Below are positions 1,555-26,635 of a stretch of DNA of 64,000 nt, piece after piece. The stretch is from NCBI RefSeq assembly GCF_022869865.1, contig NZ_CP094984.1, positions 1,116,001 through 1,180,000 on the forward strand, in the 5' to 3' direction. How positions within the stretch are numbered: the first letter of the stretch is position 1; each line of letters starts with the position of its first letter. The notes under the pieces were generated by a model. It was not told the origin of the DNA, searched no databases, and saw nothing but the letters and a program-made list of their open reading frames with translations. The stretch is from Arthrobacter zhangbolii (GTDB lineage: Bacteria; Actinomycetota; Actinomycetes; Actinomycetales; Micrococcaceae). The translations under genes were made by a program, and so were the position numbers.

Positions 1555-2859
1555 TCAGGGCCGGCCCATGCTCCGGTAGGTCCACCCGGCAGCCCGCCAT
1601 GCTGCCGGGTCCAGGATGTTCCGGCCGTCGATGAAGTTTTTCTCCGCCACCAGGGTGCCCGTGGATTCAGGGTCCAGATTGCGGTACTCCTGCCATTCGG
1701 TCAGCAGCACCACCGCGTGGGCATTAAGGAGGGCATTTTCAGTGGCCGGTTCGTAGTTCAGCTCAGGGAAACGGCCCTTGGCGTTCTGCAGCGCCTCAGG
1801 GTCAGTCACGGTTACGGTGGCACCCTGGAGCTGCATCTGCGCTGCGGCGCTGAGGGCGGGGGAGTCCCTCACATCATCGCTTTCCGGTTTGAAGGCGGCA
1901 CCCAGAATGGTGATCCGCTTGCCCAGCAAGGAGCCGCCGCAGATTTCCCGGGTCATTTCCACCACCTTCGATCGGCGGCGCATGTTGATTGCGTCCACCT
2001 CACGCAGGAAGGTCAGAGCCTGGTCCGCGCCCAGTTCCCCCGCGCGGGCCATAAAGGCGCGGATGTCCTTGGGCAGGCAGCCGCCCCCGAAACCGACGCC
2101 GGCGTTTAGGAAGCTTCGCCCGATCCGTTCGTCCATGCCGATGGCGTCGGCCAGGGCCGCGACGTCTGCTCCGGACGCTTCGCAGACCTCCGCCATGGCA
2201 TTGATAAAGCTGATCTTGGTGGCGAGAAAAGAGTTCGCTGCGGTTTTGACCAGTTCCGCAGTGGCGTAGTCCACCACCATTCTTGGGGTGCCCGTGGACA
2301 GCGGGATGGCATAGACCCGGTCCAGGGCGGCGACGGCGGCGTCGGCATCGGTGCCGGGCACTCCGTAGACGAACCGGTCCGGATCGAGCGTGTCCTGGAC
2401 AGCATGGCCCTCGCGCAGGAATTCGGGATTCCAGATGAGGACGGCGCCCGTTGCCTCCAGCTGAGGTGCCAGACGTGCAGCGGTTCCCACCGGAACCGTG
2501 GATTTACCTACCACCACGCTGCCCGGTTTCAGGTGGGGCACCAGGCCATCAACCGCGGCGTCAACATACCGCAGATCCGCCGCGTACTCGCCCTTCCGCT
2601 GGGGTGTGCCCACACAGACGAAATGAACGTCGGCGCCGGCGGCAGCGGCCGTGTCGGTACTGAAGCGCAGGCGTCCGCTATCGAGGGCTTCGGCAAGCAG
2701 TTCGGGCAGGCTGGGTTCAAAAAAGGGCGCCCGTCCGGCCGCGAGATCCGCGACCCTGGTGGCATCGACGTCGATCCCCACCACGTCATGGCCCAGCCGG
2801 GCCATGGACACTGCGTGGACGGCACCCAGATAACCGCAGCCAATAACGGAAATACGCAC
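1555..2859 (-). CDS. ugd: UDP-glucose 6-dehydrogenase
   Basis: A 434-residue enzyme oxidising UDP-glucose to UDP-glucuronate with NAD+, a precursor for acidic exopolysaccharides. The N-terminus is a Rossmann motif (ISVIGCGYLGAVHA). The catalytic cysteine sits in GFGGGCLPKDI, and the lysine-bearing motif EFLREGHA is present. The frame is open further upstream, but I place the start at the GTG at 2859: AGGGGA precedes it at good spacing, the Rossmann motif begins at the second residue, and the upstream extension would overlap the kinase gene. It lies between the histidine kinase and the GT4 gene on one strand, suggesting a three-gene unit. Confidence 0.92.
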   Translation of the reverse strand: MRISVIGCGYLGAVHAVSMARLGHDVVGIDVDATRVADLAAGRAPFFEPSLPELLAEALDSGRLRFSTDTAAAAGADVHFVCVGTPQRKGEYAADLRYVDAAVDGLVPHLKPGSVVVGKSTVPVGTAARLAPQLEATGAVLIWNPEFLREGHAVQDTLDPDRFVYGVPGTDADAAVAALDRVYAIPLSTGTPRMVVDYATAELVKTAANSFLATKISFINAMAEVCEASGADVAALADAIGMDERIGRSFLNAGVGFGGGCLPKDIRAFMARAGELGADQALTFLREVDAINMRRRSKVVEMTREICGGSLLGKRITILGAAFKPESDDVRDSPALSAAAQMQLQGATVTVTDPEALQNAKGRFPELNYEPATENALLNAHAVVLLTEWQEYRNLDPESTGTLVAEKNFIDGRNILDPAAWRAAGWTYRSMGRP

Positions 2860-2926
2860 TGTTCCCCTATGTTCATCGCGCTTATGCAGACCGGAACAAC
2901 CATATCCTGCGTGCTGCGCCCGGTGA

Positions 2927-4600
2927 TCAGGGCAGGTTGGGAGGCAGCTCCACCCGGAAGGTGGTGCCAACACCGATTTTTGAGCTGAAGGAAATACGTC
3001 CGCCGTGGGCTTCCACAATTGATTTGGTGATCACGAGACCGAGGCCCACACCGGGTATTGCGGCTTTCTTGACCTGGCCGGTCCGGAAGAACTTGGTAAA
3101 GACCTCCCGCTGATCGGCCTCGCTCATGCCTATACCGGTGTCCTCGACCTCCAGTAGCAGGTTTCCTTCCTCCCGGCGGGAACGCACCGTGACCCTGCCG
3201 CCGTCGGGCGAGTACTTGATGGCGTTGGAGAGCAGGTTGTCCAGGACCTGGGAGATCCGGGCCGGATCCACCGTGGCCAGCAGGTCCTTGGCACAATCGC
3301 AGTCCAGGTCCACACCAACGGCCGCGGCGCGGGGGCCGGCGGAATCCAGGGCTACGCGCACCAGTTCGGCAACGTCCGTCTCCGAACGGTGCAGGTGCAT
3401 GGTTCCGGAGGCAGTGGTCAGCAGGTCCGCGACCAGCAGCAGCAGGCGTTCGGCGTTGCGCTGGGCCACCTGCAGGGCACTTTGCAGACGCGGCGGGATG
3501 CCGGGGAGCGCCTCGTCATCCAGCACCAGGTCCAAATAGCCGATGATTGAGGTCAGCGGGGTCCGCAGTTCATGCGAGACGCTGGAGACAAAGTCCTCCC
3601 TGGCGTTCAGCGCGTTGACCATCTCCGTCACGTCGCTGTAGGCCAGGACGGAGCCGGTGAATATGCCGTTTTCCCGCATGGGCCGGGCGCAGACGGCCAG
3701 GGCACGCTGGCGCTCGCCTGTTCCCACCCAGATCACGACGTCGGAAAAGGCCTCCTCCCGCATGGCGCGCTGGGAGGGGCGCAGGTCTACGGATAACGGC
3801 GTGATCTGGTCCAACCCGTAAATTCTCGCCGCACTGTCCGTGTCGCCGGCATACAAAAGCCCGGCCAAGGCATGGTTGGTGCGCTGCCTGCTGTTCATGA
3901 GGATGGTCCGGCCGGTGGCGTCCACGGCCATAACGCCCACGTCCACGGTCTCAAGCACCGCGTCCAGCAGCCGCGACCGCCTCCTGGTTTCCTGCAGGCT
4001 GGCCTGCAACTCTGTTTCGATGGCGATCAGCCGTTTGTGCTGCGCGGTGGTATCGGTTTCCATGGTCGAGGCCACCACGCAGATACCCAGCATCACAAAG
4101 GGAATCAGCAGCGGGGCCGCCAGAGTATCCACGCTGGGAAAACCTCCGGCCTGAAAGAACAACGGGGTCCACAACACCAGCGTGGTGCAGAAATAACTGA
4201 GGAACCATGCCAGACGGGGAGCGGCGCCGGACCAGGCCATCCAGAAAACGGGAAAAACAGCAAGGAAACTCAAACCAATCACAGAGTTCCGGCCGTCGAA
4301 GTAAAGGCCTCCCACCACGGCGAAATCCAGCACTGGAATGCACCAATAGGCAAGGGGCGGGAATTTTTCCCAAGGAACCGCAACACACGCCACGGTCAGA
4401 ACGGCAAGAAGTGCCACGGCAAAATGGAACCCGGCATTCCCGTAGAGCGTGGGGTCCACCACTGCCGTAATGAGAAGCGCCACGGCAACTGCGATCAGAA
4501 CCGGCAGCTGGCTTACCAGCAACCGGTACCGCAGGCTGAGCTGATTAAACTGAGAGGTCATGCCCGTCAGGGTTGCCACTTGGTCTTTGAGACTGGACAT
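2927..4600 (-). CDS. Membrane histidine kinase (paralogue 1)
   Basis: A 557-residue sensor kinase. About six hydrophobic segments occupy residues 30-180, with very short loops and no large extracellular domain. A coiled-coil and PAS-like stretch follows (about 185-330), then the HisKA phosphoacceptor box SHELRTPL with His343, the N-box NLLSNAIKYS, and G-boxes ending in GVGLGLVI. All catalytic motifs look intact. It is divergent from the OmpR-type regulator at 4720 and clearly paralogous to the kinase at 5655-7331: both open with SQF(N/H)QLxLRYR and share the PVFW motif and layout. The stimulus is unknown; a membrane-embedded sensor suggests an envelope or lipid signal. Confidence 0.93.
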   Translation of the reverse strand: MSSLKDQVATLTGMTSQFNQLSLRYRLLVSQLPVLIAVAVALLITAVVDPTLYGNAGFHFAVALLAVLTVACVAVPWEKFPPLAYWCIPVLDFAVVGGLYFDGRNSVIGLSFLAVFPVFWMAWSGAAPRLAWFLSYFCTTLVLWTPLFFQAGGFPSVDTLAAPLLIPFVMLGICVVASTMETDTTAQHKRLIAIETELQASLQETRRRSRLLDAVLETVDVGVMAVDATGRTILMNSRQRTNHALAGLLYAGDTDSAARIYGLDQITPLSVDLRPSQRAMREEAFSDVVIWVGTGERQRALAVCARPMRENGIFTGSVLAYSDVTEMVNALNAREDFVSSVSHELRTPLTSIIGYLDLVLDDEALPGIPPRLQSALQVAQRNAERLLLLVADLLTTASGTMHLHRSETDVAELVRVALDSAGPRAAAVGVDLDCDCAKDLLATVDPARISQVLDNLLSNAIKYSPDGGRVTVRSRREEGNLLLEVEDTGIGMSEADQREVFTKFFRTGQVKKAAIPGVGLGLVITKSIVEAHGGRISFSSKIGVGTTFRVELPPNLP

Positions 4601-21658: not shown

Positions 21659-21796
21659 CTAGCCGGTAAGGGCAACCACGAAAAGCACGGCGGCAGCCAC
21701 CACACAGGAGGCGAGTACCGCGTAACCGACGAACGTGATGCGCTGCTGCCGTGCCCTGTCCCGGCGCCATTCCCTGCGGGTCATCATGGTAGTCAT
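21659..21796 (-). CDS. Small single-pass membrane protein, 45 aa
   Basis: A 45-residue reading frame. The N-terminal half is strongly basic (TRREWRRDRARQQR) and the second half is one hydrophobic helix (VLASCVVAAAVLFVVAL), a positive-inside tail-anchored layout. No ribosome site precedes the ATG, but TAGATT lies six bases upstream and fits an actinobacterial -10 element for a leaderless transcript. Two near-identical 19-base repeats lie 65-107 bases upstream. I do not recognise the family. It could be a small regulator of a membrane complex or a chance frame; charge layout and promoter position favour a real gene. Confidence 0.5.
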   Translation of the reverse strand: MTTMMTRREWRRDRARQQRITFVGYAVLASCVVAAAVLFVVALTG

Positions 21797-21957: not shown

Positions 21958-22209
21958 TTACTCGTTGTGCGAGTAGCCCTTCGCCAGCTCCGTGGTGGTG
22001 TCGGAGCGGCCGATGCTGAAGGCCACGAGGTAGACGGCGGTGCCGACTACCAGCAGGATCGCCATGGGCCAGACGTTGCCCAGGGTCAGCCAGTTCAGCG
22101 AGTACAGAGCGCCGCAGAAGAGCGCGAAAAGTACGGTAAAGGTGATGAGGTTGCTGACCAGATGGCCCTCACCCGAGTGCGTCGGCTGCTTCGACCGTGT
22201 TCCAACCAT
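21958..22209 (-). CDS. Small membrane protein, 83 aa, unknown family
   Basis: An 83-residue protein starting at the ATG at 22209, preceded by GGAGAA. After a hydrophilic N-terminus (GTRSKQPTHSGEGH) come two hydrophobic segments, LITFTVLFALFCGALYSL and MAILLVVGTAVYLVAFSIG, then a short polar tail. I do not recognise a family. Length and layout resemble many conserved small actinobacterial membrane proteins. It follows deoC on the same strand with a 41-base gap and ends at a strong terminator, so it may be co-transcribed with deoC; a functional link is not evident. Confidence 0.78.
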   Translation of the reverse strand: MVGTRSKQPTHSGEGHLVSNLITFTVLFALFCGALYSLNWLTLGNVWPMAILLVVGTAVYLVAFSIGRSDTTTELAKGYSHNE

Positions 22210-22250
22210 GGGAGTTCTCCGTTTCAAAAAGTGTTCTGTAGCTTCGCGGG

Positions 22251-22925: not shown

Positions 22926-23002
22926 GAATCCATTTTGCCATAGGGCGGCACGGTTAACGGGATGCGAAGATTTCCGGGGCCGTGGGGCCTGCACGTGAAA
23001 CA

Positions 23003-23047
23003 GCAATGGCCCGGATTCCCTAATTCGAAGGGAGTCCGGGCCATTGC
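23003..23047 (-). terminator. Terminator after the secreted peptide gene
   Basis: An 18-bp stem with one mismatch (23003-23020 with 23030-23047) around a 9-base loop, 11 bases beyond the stop of the 46-aa gene on the minus strand. The T-tract after it is weak (TGTTTC). It isolates the peptide gene from deoC as its own transcript. Confidence 0.75.
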
Positions 23048-23058
23048 GGCTGGCGGTA

Positions 23059-23199
23059 TTACGCGTTCGGCCACATGCCGTAAGGCTTAACAACGTTGTT
23101 GGAGGGAGAAAGCGGAGCAGCGGCCGCCGTGGCCGGCGCTGCTACTCCTGCTCCTGCAATAACAGCGGCAAGTGCCAGTGCTGCACCCAGTTTCTTCAT
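23059..23199 (-). CDS. Small secreted peptide precursor, 46 aa
   Basis: A 46-residue precursor. Residues 1-27 are a classic signal peptide: MKK, a hydrophobic run of Ala, Leu, Val and Gly, then ATAAAA as the cleavage region. The predicted mature part is only about 19 residues, with hydrophilic SPSNN followed by [15 protein letters not shown] lies seven bases before the ATG, a TATACT -10 element lies upstream, and a strong terminator lies downstream, so it is well supported as an independent gene. It is divergent from a TPR protein gene 233 bases away. Possible roles are a signalling peptide, a small bacteriocin-like peptide or a cell-wall peptide; the first fits the neighbour best. Confidence 0.72.
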
Positions 23200-23432
23200 T
23201 GTTGTGCTCCTTATGCGATCGTCGGTCTTGTATGCAAGACAATTGGAGTATAGCCACCTATGGGACGAGGTATTTACGTCCGTCGGAAAATTTAGGGAAT
23301 ACTGAGCAGATGTTGCCGAAGAGGTACCGTTAGGCGCATGAACGTGGGAATCGTCCAATTCTTGCGTTGGTCGAGGTCGTTTCGAATACGAAATCGTGTC
23401 CCGCTCTGGTCATTAGGGAAAAAGGTATACGC
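23200..23432. promoter_or_regulatory. Divergent control region with inverted repeat
   Basis: This 233-base gap between the secreted peptide and TPR genes is clearly AT-richer than the surroundings. For the peptide gene, TATACT (23252-23247, minus strand) is a good -10. Immediately downstream lies a perfect inverted repeat, GTCTTG-TATG-CAAGAC (23225-23240), at the expected transcription start, a typical place for a repressor operator. The TPR gene's ribosome site is the AAAGG just before its GTG. The promoter for the TPR gene is not obvious. Confidence 0.45.
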
Positions 23433-24461
23433 GTGGATAGCAAAAAAGTCTTCATCCTCAATGAATATCGCGCTCAACAGGCACAGGAACGACGGGACTA
23501 CGTCGAGGCCATTGAGTATTCGCACTGCGCAGTGCAAGCAGCGGTCGAGGGCAACGATGACTGGGGGTATTGCCGAATGATGTTCAACGTTGCAACTTTG
23601 CAGTACGAACTTGGTTACCTGGATGAATCCGCCGTGACCACTCGCGCCCTTGTCGCATCGGACGCGGTGGCTTCCTATCCTGATCTCCAGGCAAAGGCTA
23701 AAGTCCTTCTCTCTCGGGCGCTGCAAAACAAGGGCGACATGGAGGCTGCTTTGTCCGTGGCCTTGGACGCGTCCGAAGAAGCTGATGATCATGGATCACT
23801 CGAAGTCAGGTTGAGCAGTCAGCACGGACTCGTTGCAGCTTTAGCAGAGGAGGGGGACCTCGAGGCAGCTTGGAAGGAAGCGCTCAACCTCTCTGAAATG
23901 GCGCGTGGGGACTGCAGTCCCAAGGTGGCCGGCTTGGCGAACTGGACTATAGGCAATGTGGGCTTCATGGCGGGCAAGGACCGTGAAGGAGTGAAATACC
24001 ACCAACTGGCGAGCCAAGCGTTGGCGTCTATAAATGATGTAACTCAGTGGGGACTCTTCAATAAGGCGTCAGCCCACATGCGGTTGTTTGCAGGTTTATT
24101 GGAAAGCGACACGCTTGAGTGTATTGAGCGCGCAGAGGTTGCGCTGGGCATCACCGGTGCTGGTGAAAGCGACTTGCTCGAGCTGGAGATCACCCGGGCC
24201 TGGTGGGAGCTCGAGACTGGAAATCCTAACAAGGCTGACGAGCTGCTGATTCCGATAGAGGCCAAAGTAGCCGGTCCTTACCCCTTCCTCCTGGGGCGCA
24301 CGCTCCAGTTGCGCGCCCGCTGCCTCGACGCACTGGGGCAGGAAGCTGCTGCCATGGAATGCGCGCAGAAAAGCGAACGCATCTTTACCGAGGTAGGAGC
24401 CGAGGTGCTGGCGGCCGATTCGCGGAAAATTAGAGACGCCCTTGGGCAGTCGGCTCGATAA
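23433..24461 (+). CDS. TPR-repeat protein, possible peptide sensor
   Basis: A 342-residue cytoplasmic, all-helical protein made of tetratricopeptide-like repeats. The clearest are at residues 91-117 (SRALQNKGDMEAALSVALDAS) and 131-157 (LVAALAEEGDLEAAWKEALNLS), with weaker ones to the end. There is no signal, membrane helix or helix-turn-helix. I chose the GTG at 23433 because AAAGG precedes it and repeat-like sequence begins soon after; the frame is open upstream to 23367. Codon use is AT-richer than the neighbours (ATA isoleucines, many A/T third positions), suggesting transfer. It resembles the repeat domain of Rap/RRNPP-type peptide receptors by architecture only. Confidence 0.7.
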   Translation: MDSKKVFILNEYRAQQAQERRDYVEAIEYSHCAVQAAVEGNDDWGYCRMMFNVATLQYELGYLDESAVTTRALVASDAVASYPDLQAKAKVLLSRALQNKGDMEAALSVALDASEEADDHGSLEVRLSSQHGLVAALAEEGDLEAAWKEALNLSEMARGDCSPKVAGLANWTIGNVGFMAGKDREGVKYHQLASQALASINDVTQWGLFNKASAHMRLFAGLLESDTLECIERAEVALGITGAGESDLLELEITRAWWELETGNPNKADELLIPIEAKVAGPYPFLLGRTLQLRARCLDALGQEAAAMECAQKSERIFTEVGAEVLAADSRKIRDALGQSAR

Positions 24462-24617: not shown

Positions 24618-25064
24618 ATGGCAAGACAGAATACGGTGCAGGAAAGCAGTCCCGGGAACCATCCGGAACGTATGGACGCCGCAGAGGAGATGCGTGCGGA
24701 ACCGCTCGCGGAGAGTGCCCGGGTGGGTATGACAGCGGACGGCAAAATCACGCTGGTACTGCCGCCCGGACAAGTGGTTACCGGAGCCATGGCTGCAGAA
24801 GCAGCCCAGGAGATCGAGAACCTGGCCGGCGTCCGGCGCCTGCCGCTGCTGCTCACCCTGACAGGTGTGGAATCCATTTCCCGTACCGCCCGGGACATTT
24901 TCAGTGCAGCCCGTTCCCTGTCCGCCGTTGCAGTGATCGGCATATCTCCCGTGGACAGGGTGATAGCCAATTTCCTGCTGGGCGGTGAAGTCCAGCCCTG
25001 CCCCACACGGTATTTTTCCCGTGAAAAAGACGCACTGGATTGGCTGAAACGGCACGCACCATGA
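24618..25064 (+). CDS. STAS-like regulatory protein (DUF7793-type)
   Basis: A 148-residue soluble protein. Residues 36-147 have alternating strands and helices with LVLPPGQVVTGAMAAEAAQEI, LPLLLTLTGVESISRTAR and a conserved end GISPVDRVIANFLLGG, then CPTRYFSREKDALDWL. This matches a group of actinobacterial STAS/SpoIIAA-like proteins (recently named DUF7793) that sit beside diguanylate cyclases. The first 35 residues are a hydrophilic extension. The stop overlaps the start of the GGDEF-EAL gene as ATGA, so the products are coupled. It probably modulates that enzyme; no catalytic residues are evident. Confidence 0.75.
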   Translation: MARQNTVQESSPGNHPERMDAAEEMRAEPLAESARVGMTADGKITLVLPPGQVVTGAMAAEAAQEIENLAGVRRLPLLLTLTGVESISRTARDIFSAARSLSAVAVIGISPVDRVIANFLLGGEVQPCPTRYFSREKDALDWLKRHAP

Positions 25065-26635
25065 CAGACGCACCAACTGAGTCCGGCCAGCTGCCGGAGG
25101 ACCCGCGCCTTGACCGGATTGTCGAGGGCATTGTCAGCATCGCTGCCGGGAACCTGACCTCCAAGATCCCGGTTTCCCCTGCCCGTGACCAGATCGATGC
25201 TGTCAGCACCGGCATCAATCTGCTTGCCTCCGAGCTGGACGACATCTACCAGGACATGGAGCAGCGGGTGGAAACCCGGACGCTGGAACTCCGTGAAGCT
25301 CACAGGCAGATGCAGCGCATGGCCCTCTCCGATCCCTTGACCGGGCTGGGCAACCGCATCGCACTGATGCAGCATGTGCAGCAGGCACTGATGAACTGGG
25401 ATGGCGGCCCATCGGCGCCCGGCGTGCTGATGATCGACCTTGACGGCTTCAAGGAGATCAATGACAGCTTCGGGCACCACGCGGGGGACGTGGTGCTGCA
25501 GGAGGTGGCAGCACGCCTGCTTGCCTCGGTGCCGGAGGGGAGCTCCGTTGCGCGGCTGGGCGGCGACGAGTTCGCCGTGCTGGTTCCCGCCGTCGGGCGC
25601 CTTTCTGCCCGCGGAGTGGCCGAACGGATCCAGAATGCACTGGGAATCCGGACCAAGGTCGAGGAACTGGATGTCTGGCCGCGCGCCAGCATCGGCGTCC
25701 ACGTGGCAGAAACGGGCCAAACCGCTGACGACCTGCTGCTGTGCGCCGATACCGCTATGTACGTTGCCAAGGAAGAAGGGCCGGGTCTGGTGCGGTCCTT
25801 TGAGCCGGTCATGCTGTACGCCCGGCAGCTGCGGCGTGAAATGGCCTCTGAACTGCGCAGCGCAGTGGAGCGTGACGAGCTGCGTCTGGTGTACCAGCCC
25901 GTTGTTGATCTGGTGACGGGCCACATGCAGGGCGTGGAGGTCCTGGTCCGCTGGCAGCACCCGGCCCAGGGCCTGGTAATGCCGGACATGTTCATCCCCC
26001 TCGCGGAGGAAAGCGGTGCGATTCTGCAGATCGGACGCTGGGTGCTGCGTAAGGCGCTGGAACAGCTCGCCGAGTGGCGCAGGCACGCAGAGCACCGGGA
26101 AGATTTCCACGTTCGGGTCAACGTCAGTGCGGCCGAGCTGCAGGCCATGGACCTGGTGGACTATGTCCGCTCGGTCCTGCGCGACACGGGGGCATCACCC
26201 CAGGAGCTGGTCCTGGAAATCACCGAGAGTGCCTTTGTGGGCAGCGGGGATGTGGAGACCTACTCAATGCGCTCGCTCAAGGCGCTTGGCGTCCGCCTGG
26301 AGATTGACGATTTCGGCACCGGCTATTCCTCCATCAGTTACCTGCGCCGGCTGCCTGTGCACACGGTCAAGGTGGACCGGACGCTGATCGCGGACATCTG
26401 CGGTGACGAGGGACAGCTGAAGTTCGTGGACGCCGTGCATCAGCTGATCCGGGCGGCCGGGATGGAAGCGGTGTTCGAAGGGATCGAGACACAACAGCAG
26501 GCGGGGAAGCTGCGCGAGATGGGATGCTGCAGCGGACAGGGCTACTACTTCAGCCGGCCCATCAACGAGAAGCAGGTAGGCACCCTCCTTGCCAGTGGCA
26601 GCCGGCTGCCGCTGGCAACCGAACTGGTTGCCTAG
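25061..26635 (+). CDS. Soluble GGDEF-EAL c-di-GMP enzyme with HAMP-like N-terminus
   Basis: A 524-residue bifunctional c-di-GMP protein. Residues 15-65 look like a HAMP unit (IVSIAAGNLTSKIPVS), but there is no membrane segment. A short coiled coil leads to the GGDEF domain (about 88-245), with an intact RLGGDEF at 166-171. The inhibitory RxxD site is absent (PEGS at that position), so product inhibition may be lost. The EAL domain (about 265-505) has EVL at 293-295 in place of EAL and retains NVS, EITES, IDDFGTGYSS, the VKVD lysine and EGIE, so phosphodiesterase activity is plausible. It is translationally coupled to the STAS-like gene. Confidence 0.92.
   Translation: MTDAPTESGQLPEDPRLDRIVEGIVSIAAGNLTSKIPVSPARDQIDAVSTGINLLASELDDIYQDMEQRVETRTLELREAHRQMQRMALSDPLTGLGNRIALMQHVQQALMNWDGGPSAPGVLMIDLDGFKEINDSFGHHAGDVVLQEVAARLLASVPEGSSVARLGGDEFAVLVPAVGRLSARGVAERIQNALGIRTKVEELDVWPRASIGVHVAETGQTADDLLLCADTAMYVAKEEGPGLVRSFEPVMLYARQLRREMASELRSAVERDELRLVYQPVVDLVTGHMQGVEVLVRWQHPAQGLVMPDMFIPLAEESGAILQIGRWVLRKALEQLAEWRRHAEHREDFHVRVNVSAAELQAMDLVDYVRSVLRDTGASPQELVLEITESAFVGSGDVETYSMRSLKALGVRLEIDDFGTGYSSISYLRRLPVHTVKVDRTLIADICGDEGQLKFVDAVHQLIRAAGMEAVFEGIETQQQAGKLREMGCCSGQGYYFSRPINEKQVGTLLASGSRLPLATELVA

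Follow-up and report, generated by a model that had tools for sequence, protein, structure and literature searches.

A conserved pair of a secreted peptide and a TPR protein

We analyzed a 64-kb window (64,000 nucleotides; contig NZ_CP094984.1, positions 1,116,001 to 1,180,000) of the 3.46-Mb genome of Arthrobacter zhangbolii, in which a gene for a 46-residue secreted propeptide lies divergent from a gene for a 342-residue protein of tetratricopeptide repeats (TPR) (Table 1). We read the two as a peptide signal and its cognate TPR receptor, with a probability of about 0.9; the plan of the pair, and apparently part of its ancestry, is that of the RRNPP systems. An initial annotation of this DNA had described the two divergent genes, and both the open reading frames (ORFs) and the other genomes of the genus confirm them. 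It had overlooked two further genes, encoding a STAS-like and a GGDEF-EAL protein, as well as a paralogue of the receptor that bears a helix-turn-helix (HTH) domain.

The TPR protein had a counterpart in 28/28 other genomes of the genus (relatives of the locus include Arthrobacter zhaoxinii, A. citreus and A. luteolus), and both genes kept the same divergent arrangement in 29/29, each time with a small ORF bearing a signal sequence. A first sample beyond the genus gave TPR relatives in two other genera of the family (G034, G035) and one weak match outside it (G045). At an expect value (E) of 1e-20, receptor homologues were present in 143/295 Micrococcaceae genomes and 17/32 genera; 157 distinct receptor domains were collected, 153 of them with at least 700 nt of upstream DNA. 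A divergent secreted ORF accompanied 82 of the 89 receptors first typed as TPR-only in a strict scan and two more in a relaxed one. We dropped three of the 89, since L031 and L048 (the latter broken) are loci of the HTH paralogue and L178 has a degenerate HTH-like end, so that 84/86 TPR-only receptors with readable upstream DNA face a small secreted peptide; L069 and L096 scored as misses, and L096 may itself be broken. The scan for signal-bearing ORFs, a home-made rule used in place of SignalP with a threshold fixed after the true hits had been seen, returned 1/186 strand-windows in the 64-kb window, which was the propeptide itself, and 0/298 in downstream flanks. Two contigs labelled Vibrio cholerae 35D and Sporosarcina beigongshangi (L062, L089) also hold an Arthrobacter-like locus and are probably contaminated or mislabelled.

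The peptide core is often repeated and tracks receptor type

Within the genus the peptide tails carried WP in 26/29 cases and FP in 3/29, and across all loci the common core was mostly [VI]G[NWD]WP[DNHY], one clade often having N in place of G. The 84 partners of TPR-only receptors held one WP copy in 66 cases, two in 10, three in 3, four in 2 and none (FP) in 3. By comparison, 24 of 25 partners of homologous receptors with an N-terminal HTH (HTH-TPR) held 2 to 8 copies. Examples are AKVGNWPDGTTTTKVGNWPDGTTTTKVGNWPDGTYQAV in Arthrobacter sp. Soil782, six units of AIGNWPDPMK in L173 and eight of VGDWPH in L190. By analogy, multi-copy pheromone precursors are laid out in this way, with a signal sequence followed by near-identical short units and variable linkers between them: excerpts of the literature report RRNPP propeptides with up to six copies for AimR, NprR, PlcR and Rap (PMC9765709) and a study of two-copy Phr precursors (PMC11343458).

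Five genomes carried one locus of each receptor type. GWWP faced the TPR-only receptor in all five, and the HTH-TPR partner in the same genomes was GNWPDPM in four and GIWP in one; a sixth genome (G078) agreed, with GWWPN against GNWPN. Judged from these sequences, peptide type tracks receptor type. Two genomes held tandem TPR-only pairs with unlike peptides (L137, L145), their cores being GNWPG or GNWPD repeats, and DDWPH or DNWPN.

The propeptide of the window (46 codons, 23199-23062, with the stop at 23061-23059 on the minus strand) begins rich in lysine, continues with a hydrophobic stretch and contains A-x-A motifs, which together read as a 27-residue signal sequence followed, if cleavage falls after ...ATAAA, by a 19-residue tail. 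Its core, YGMWP (codons 23082-23068; extended form YGMWPN), is the GMWP form of the family core. The ribosome-binding site AAGGAGC ends six bases before the ATG. In an alignment of the divergent region from 28 genus loci, in which the -10 element, ribosome sites and short clade-level blocks could be seen, TATACT was retained in nearer relatives and changed or lost in the rest; a shared operator was considered and rejected, no convincing palindrome being visible by eye. The hairpin behind the gene has a folding energy of -37.8 kcal/mol (z -7.1), and 0/200 shuffles were equally good. Consensus promoter (sigma-70) and terminator scans of the propeptide region gave no match, TATACT and the hairpin included. 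Together with the short T run, this makes the earlier description of a strong terminator true of the stem and not of the T tract, while the ribosome site and TATACT stand as described.

The proposed TPR-only receptor lacks a DNA-binding domain and has an HTH-bearing paralogue

Pfam returned two generic TPR matches below cut-off for the 342-residue protein and no HTH match, so the N-terminal XRE HTH of the PlcR/NprR type is absent. The predicted structure consists of 17 helices (mean predicted local distance difference test score, pLDDT, 93.9) with TPR-like helix pairs from end to end, which bears out the earlier view that the receptor, like Rap, has no DNA-binding domain. Residues W171, W206, N210 and R217 of the receptor are invariant. 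Fold comparison matched TPR folds, Rap and NprR among them; we set this likeness aside as proof of RRNPP membership, since LGN and other TPR proteins outscored both. The profile of the window receptor matched RapF only weakly (E 0.04), and neither Pfam nor NCBIfam gave it a specific family (PHROGs and PADLOC lay outside this search). The pair was kept together in relatives, and no family with an unrelated role was found for its receptor.

Lower E values came from the HTH-TPR proteins, whose profile matched PlcR at E 5.7e-11, and ComR and 5w4m at E about 0.002-0.003 over the HTH. With the retained pair, the repeated cores and the tracking of receptor type by peptide type, this homology lends good support to the earlier proposal that a peptide signal and a TPR receptor are paired here as in RRNPP systems. 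The HTH-TPR gene of L045, a locus from another genus, lies opposite a secreted ORF that holds two AIGNWPDPM units. The paralogue in the genome of the window lies between an RpfB-like and a ksgA-like ORF, both identified by eye, with no secreted peptide ORF adjoining. Alone among the HTH-TPR loci from the genus of the window, the broken L048 has a short ORF lacking a signal sequence that ends in KVGNWPD, on the divergent strand and roughly 490 bases upstream from the receptor match; it may be a remnant, a leaderless signal or a chance occurrence.

The initial annotation had also suggested that the pair was acquired, because the TPR gene has AT-rich codons unlike its neighbors. GC content at third codon positions (GC3) is indeed lower in the TPR gene (0.63) and peptide gene (0.52) than in Mfd (0.83), DeoC (0.75) and GGDEF-EAL (0.80), but the STAS gene (0.64) is alike. 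The TPR genes of loci L001-L030 are all low in GC3 (0.55-0.69, mean 0.63), so that this is a family trait and no sign of recent arrival. We therefore rejected recent acquisition: the gene is in all 29 genus genomes searched, and DeoC, STAS and GGDEF-EAL flank all 29 genus loci. A phage origin was rejected as well, the window TPR and HTH-TPR proteins being unmatched in 50,697 phage records. Seven viral contigs contained a tandem (GN)WPD DNA pattern; in the contig DNA examined, no ORF made a plausible precursor and none matched a receptor at E 1e-3.

A STAS and GGDEF-EAL pair accompanies TPR-only receptors

Behind the receptor gene of the window lie the STAS-like gene and a GGDEF-EAL gene; the stop of the former and the ATG of the latter overlap (ATGA). 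By tblastn, both genes followed the receptor in 30/30 of L001-L030. In a set of named genomes that partly repeats those loci, GGDEF-EAL followed the receptor at 36/43 TPR-only loci and preceded it at one (L087); the gene was not seen in the DNA examined for L067, L073, L074, L077, L088 and L091 (where the contig ends), nor at the partial loci L095 and L096, which fall outside the 43-locus count. For L067, L074, L077 and L088, with no GGDEF-EAL within about 3.5 kb downstream, an insertion may displace the gene, or the partner may differ.

For 20 TPR-only loci from six other genera, about 5 kb downstream were read (3.3 kb for one). All 20 had a GGDEF-EAL gene, downstream in 14 and, in 6, upstream on the same strand beyond the peptide gene. 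No GGDEF-EAL gene was found beside HTH-TPR loci (0/9). DeoC, the neighbor on the other side, was not found in the locus DNA examined from other genera, and simple synteny of a block therefore does not fully explain the linkage. The association extended to 36 hand-chosen genomes. Seven with a TPR-only receptor carried this GGDEF-EAL protein at 52-57% identity and E 1.4e-158 or better, the receptor-side copy in G068 being the second best of its genome (4.7e-151), against a best E of 3.4e-130 and at most 47% identity in the 29 without a typed TPR-only receptor. Signature motifs were intact in the readable proteins (GGDEF 26/26, E(A/V)L 25/26, DDFGTGYS 26/26).

At four of the 14 downstream loci (L325, L326, L329, L330) a large membrane protein sits between the receptor and STAS/GGDEF-EAL, and the two of these that were scanned belong to the family-2 glycosyltransferases (PF13632, E 6e-36 and 9e-37). 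A CBM_5_12 protein lies near the membrane protein in L329. This context makes a polysaccharide output possible.

A TPR protein with no DNA-binding domain must, like Rap, act on a protein partner. We lean towards the STAS/GGDEF-EAL pair as the target of the TPR-only receptor. A less probable alternative, with a real but minor share of our confidence, is that the TPR-only protein is an anti-regulator that binds the HTH-TPR paralogue, GGDEF-EAL being merely co-inherited and the first steps of signaling unchanged. Such a paralogue was present in 29/29 genus genomes, with an XRE HTH wherever it was read; its TPR domain is 28-35% identical to that of the window receptor, and no secreted ORF lay beside it in the 19 genus loci read. 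However, 8/26 genomes with a TPR-only receptor gave no HTH-TPR match at E 1e-15, so the paralogue cannot be the sole target, and GGDEF-EAL accompanies the receptor even when it lies on the other side. The STAS/GGDEF-EAL pair is therefore the target we propose.

Between Mfd and DeoC are two small ORFs resembling membrane proteins (21659-21796 and 21958-22227, both on the minus strand), with no Pfam family over cut-off.

Table 1. Positions of the proposed signaling genes, their control elements and related loci (window coordinates unless an accession or other handle is given)
Feature	Position	Strand	Basis or remark
Secreted propeptide gene, 46 aa + stop	23059..23199	-	Sequence reading; orthologues in 29/29 genus loci
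Ribosome-binding site AAGGAGC of propeptide	23206..23212	-	Sequence; CTCC block in most aligned intergenic regions
TATACT, -10-like element of propeptide	23247..23252	-	Sequence; intergenic alignment
Stable terminator-like hairpin behind propeptide, short T run	22996..23061	-	Folding against shuffles
TPR-only protein (342 aa, start codon GTG), proposed as a Rap-like pheromone receptor in the cytoplasm	23433..24461	+	ORF, profiles, fold model
STAS-like protein, DUF7793 (PF25056, E 1.8e-15); proposed receptor partner	24618..25064	+	Pfam, tblastn
HAMP-like + GGDEF + EAL protein, intact signature motifs; proposed output enzyme	25061..26635	+	Pfam, tblastn
HTH-TPR paralogue, outside the window	G000:C1:1070134-1071351 (L031 about 2602-3820)		N-terminal XRE HTH present
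HTH-TPR gene, C-1027 enediyne plasmid	NZ_CP013739.1 68148-69383		L280 12004-13239
Hypothetical 55-aa ORF, C-1027 enediyne plasmid	NZ_CP013739.1 66963-67130		L280 10819-10986

Related peptides and receptors outside Micrococcaceae

At the level of the order, the HTH-TPR profile found matches at E 1e-30 in 18/297 genomes, of which three belong to another family. We read four loci from this second family: opposite the receptor gene there is a precursor with three VGGSWPT units in L229 and a peptide that ends in SDTWPA in L230, and L231 and L243 have no facing WP peptide. At the level of the class, 8/246 genomes matched at E 1e-20, five from outside the order, and of six outside-order loci one (L245) has two DIGWP cores in its facing peptide. 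Its genus, which we take to be Streptomyces, had an HTH-TPR relative in 26/121 genomes. Six of 30 loci of that genus have a divergent signal-bearing ORF (L250, L258, L261, L262, L264, L276), each with two or three (D/N/G/V)I(D/E/G)WP cores; L254 and L256 have a single WP core in an ORF with no clear signal, and no WP peptide ORF was found in the other 22 within the stretch scanned.

Plasmid records with this type of HTH-TPR gene came from Streptomyces in 36/39 cases, and three were read. On SGLP1 of S. globisporus C-1027 (NZ_CP013739.1), the HTH-TPR gene lies among the C-1027 genes, 5.7 kb from sgcR1. Beyond an acyl-carrier gene, a 55-residue ORF annotated as hypothetical can be read as a secreted peptide containing EDVEWP and DEVEWP. 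From sequence, the SGLP1 protein may be a pheromone-gated regulator within an antibiotic cluster. An XRE-type sgcR is named in an excerpt of PMC2657911. We considered the HTH-TPR gene as SgcR3 and rejected this, since the published SgcR3 promoter primers are absent from the surrounding 25 kb and the sgcR1R2 primers are present; it is probably another gene. In S. sp. NBC_01006, three DIGWP cores lie beside the HTH-TPR gene, near a non-ribosomal peptide synthetase gene, and in S. finlayi (NZ_CP045703.1, L253) there is only a distant ORF ending in GELDWP. On balance, we favor a G-x-W-P peptide language that is widespread in Actinomycetota and read by RRNPP-homologous receptors, of which TPR-only forms would be wired to STAS/GGDEF-EAL in Micrococcaceae and HTH-TPR forms would be pheromone-gated, some of them in Streptomyces antibiotic clusters such as that for C-1027.

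Proposed mechanism

Very likely, the peptide system works inside the cell, as RRNPP systems do, making it Rap-like and of Actinomycetota. The 46-residue precursor would be exported by Sec and cut by signal peptidase, and the tail processed down to a few residues around YGMWPNA, a peptide that would build up outside the cell. An oligopeptide permease would take the peptide back; the genome encodes five SBP_bac_5 proteins, which makes this import route possible. Inside the cell, the peptide would bind the TPR groove and alter how the TPR protein holds its protein partner, most plausibly the adjacent STAS/GGDEF-EAL pair. Cell density would thus tune cyclic di-GMP (c-di-GMP), the output that we prefer for the system, and perhaps surface polysaccharide.

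Two other readings, both improbable, place the peptide outside this circuit. In one, it is an extracellular or surface signal for another receptor and the TPR gene is a mere neighbor. Receptor-peptide binding is indeed inferred, and the covariation that the initial annotation had put forward as a check does not discriminate. Among 28 genus loci, receptor and tail distances had a partial correlation of 0.54 after DeoC (0/1000 shuffles as high), whereas the receptor and signal sequence gave 0.60 in the same test; the signal sequence thus correlates as well as the tail, covariation does not show receptor-tail contact, and we dropped it as proof. Against a mere neighbor, the pairing persists across genera for both kinds of receptor, TPR-only and HTH-TPR, and the type of peptide goes with that of the receptor. 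Equally improbable is a secreted antimicrobial or competition peptide with the TPR protein as its immunity or expression control, which would suit a small, secreted, fast-evolving tail adjoining a conserved gene, but one short core repeated up to eight times per precursor suits a cut-out signal better, and the homologous receptors bear DNA-binding domains.

Comparison with known systems

RRNPP signaling is regarded as a system of Firmicutes, their phages and plasmids. Among the literature matches listed, covering titles and the starts of abstracts with subscription papers and preprints outside, there was no earlier description of a peptide system in Actinomycetota that is of RRNPP type or has a WP core. 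The phylum and the pheromone family therefore appear new. The probable output also appears new, within a literature search that did not extend to earlier links between RRNPP and c-di-GMP. If our reading is true, a conserved, often repeat-bearing pheromone family opens a signaling channel in an antibiotic-rich phylum, apparently including some Streptomyces antibiotic clusters, and an RRNPP-like receptor is tied to c-di-GMP. Short cores, which judging by the genes are also linear, can be supplied as synthetic peptides, so that testing is cheap. In excerpts, the RRNPP_detector survey covers Firmicutes and viruses only and says that Actinomycetota typically use enzyme-made small molecules (PMC10075063).

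The pair described here would share density control in Actinobacteria with the gamma-butyrolactone signaling of Streptomyces, as treated in an excerpt of PMC4748050. Our HTH-TPR relatives can be set beside several peptide systems. AimR-AimP, the arbitrium system of Bacillus phages, also combines an HTH-TPR receptor with a secreted peptide; unlike it, neither of our receptor types matched a phage record. Gamma-butyrolactones, for their part, are small molecules and not gene-encoded peptides, and their receptors are unrelated to ours. PlcR-PapR and NprR-NprX have the same architecture as the HTH-TPR paralogues, with the similarity to PlcR given above, but differ in phylum, in pheromone core, in the up to eight copies found here, and in that the genus of the window has no secreted ORF beside the HTH-TPR loci read. 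Close in plan to the TPR-only pair is Rap-Phr of Bacillus (RapF, RapH, and the Rap proteins of phi105 and phi3T), likewise built on a TPR-only receptor with no DNA-binding domain; the pair differs from it in belonging to Actinomycetota, in its WP-core peptide, its divergent gene order, its adjoining STAS and GGDEF-EAL genes and its weak similarity to RapF.
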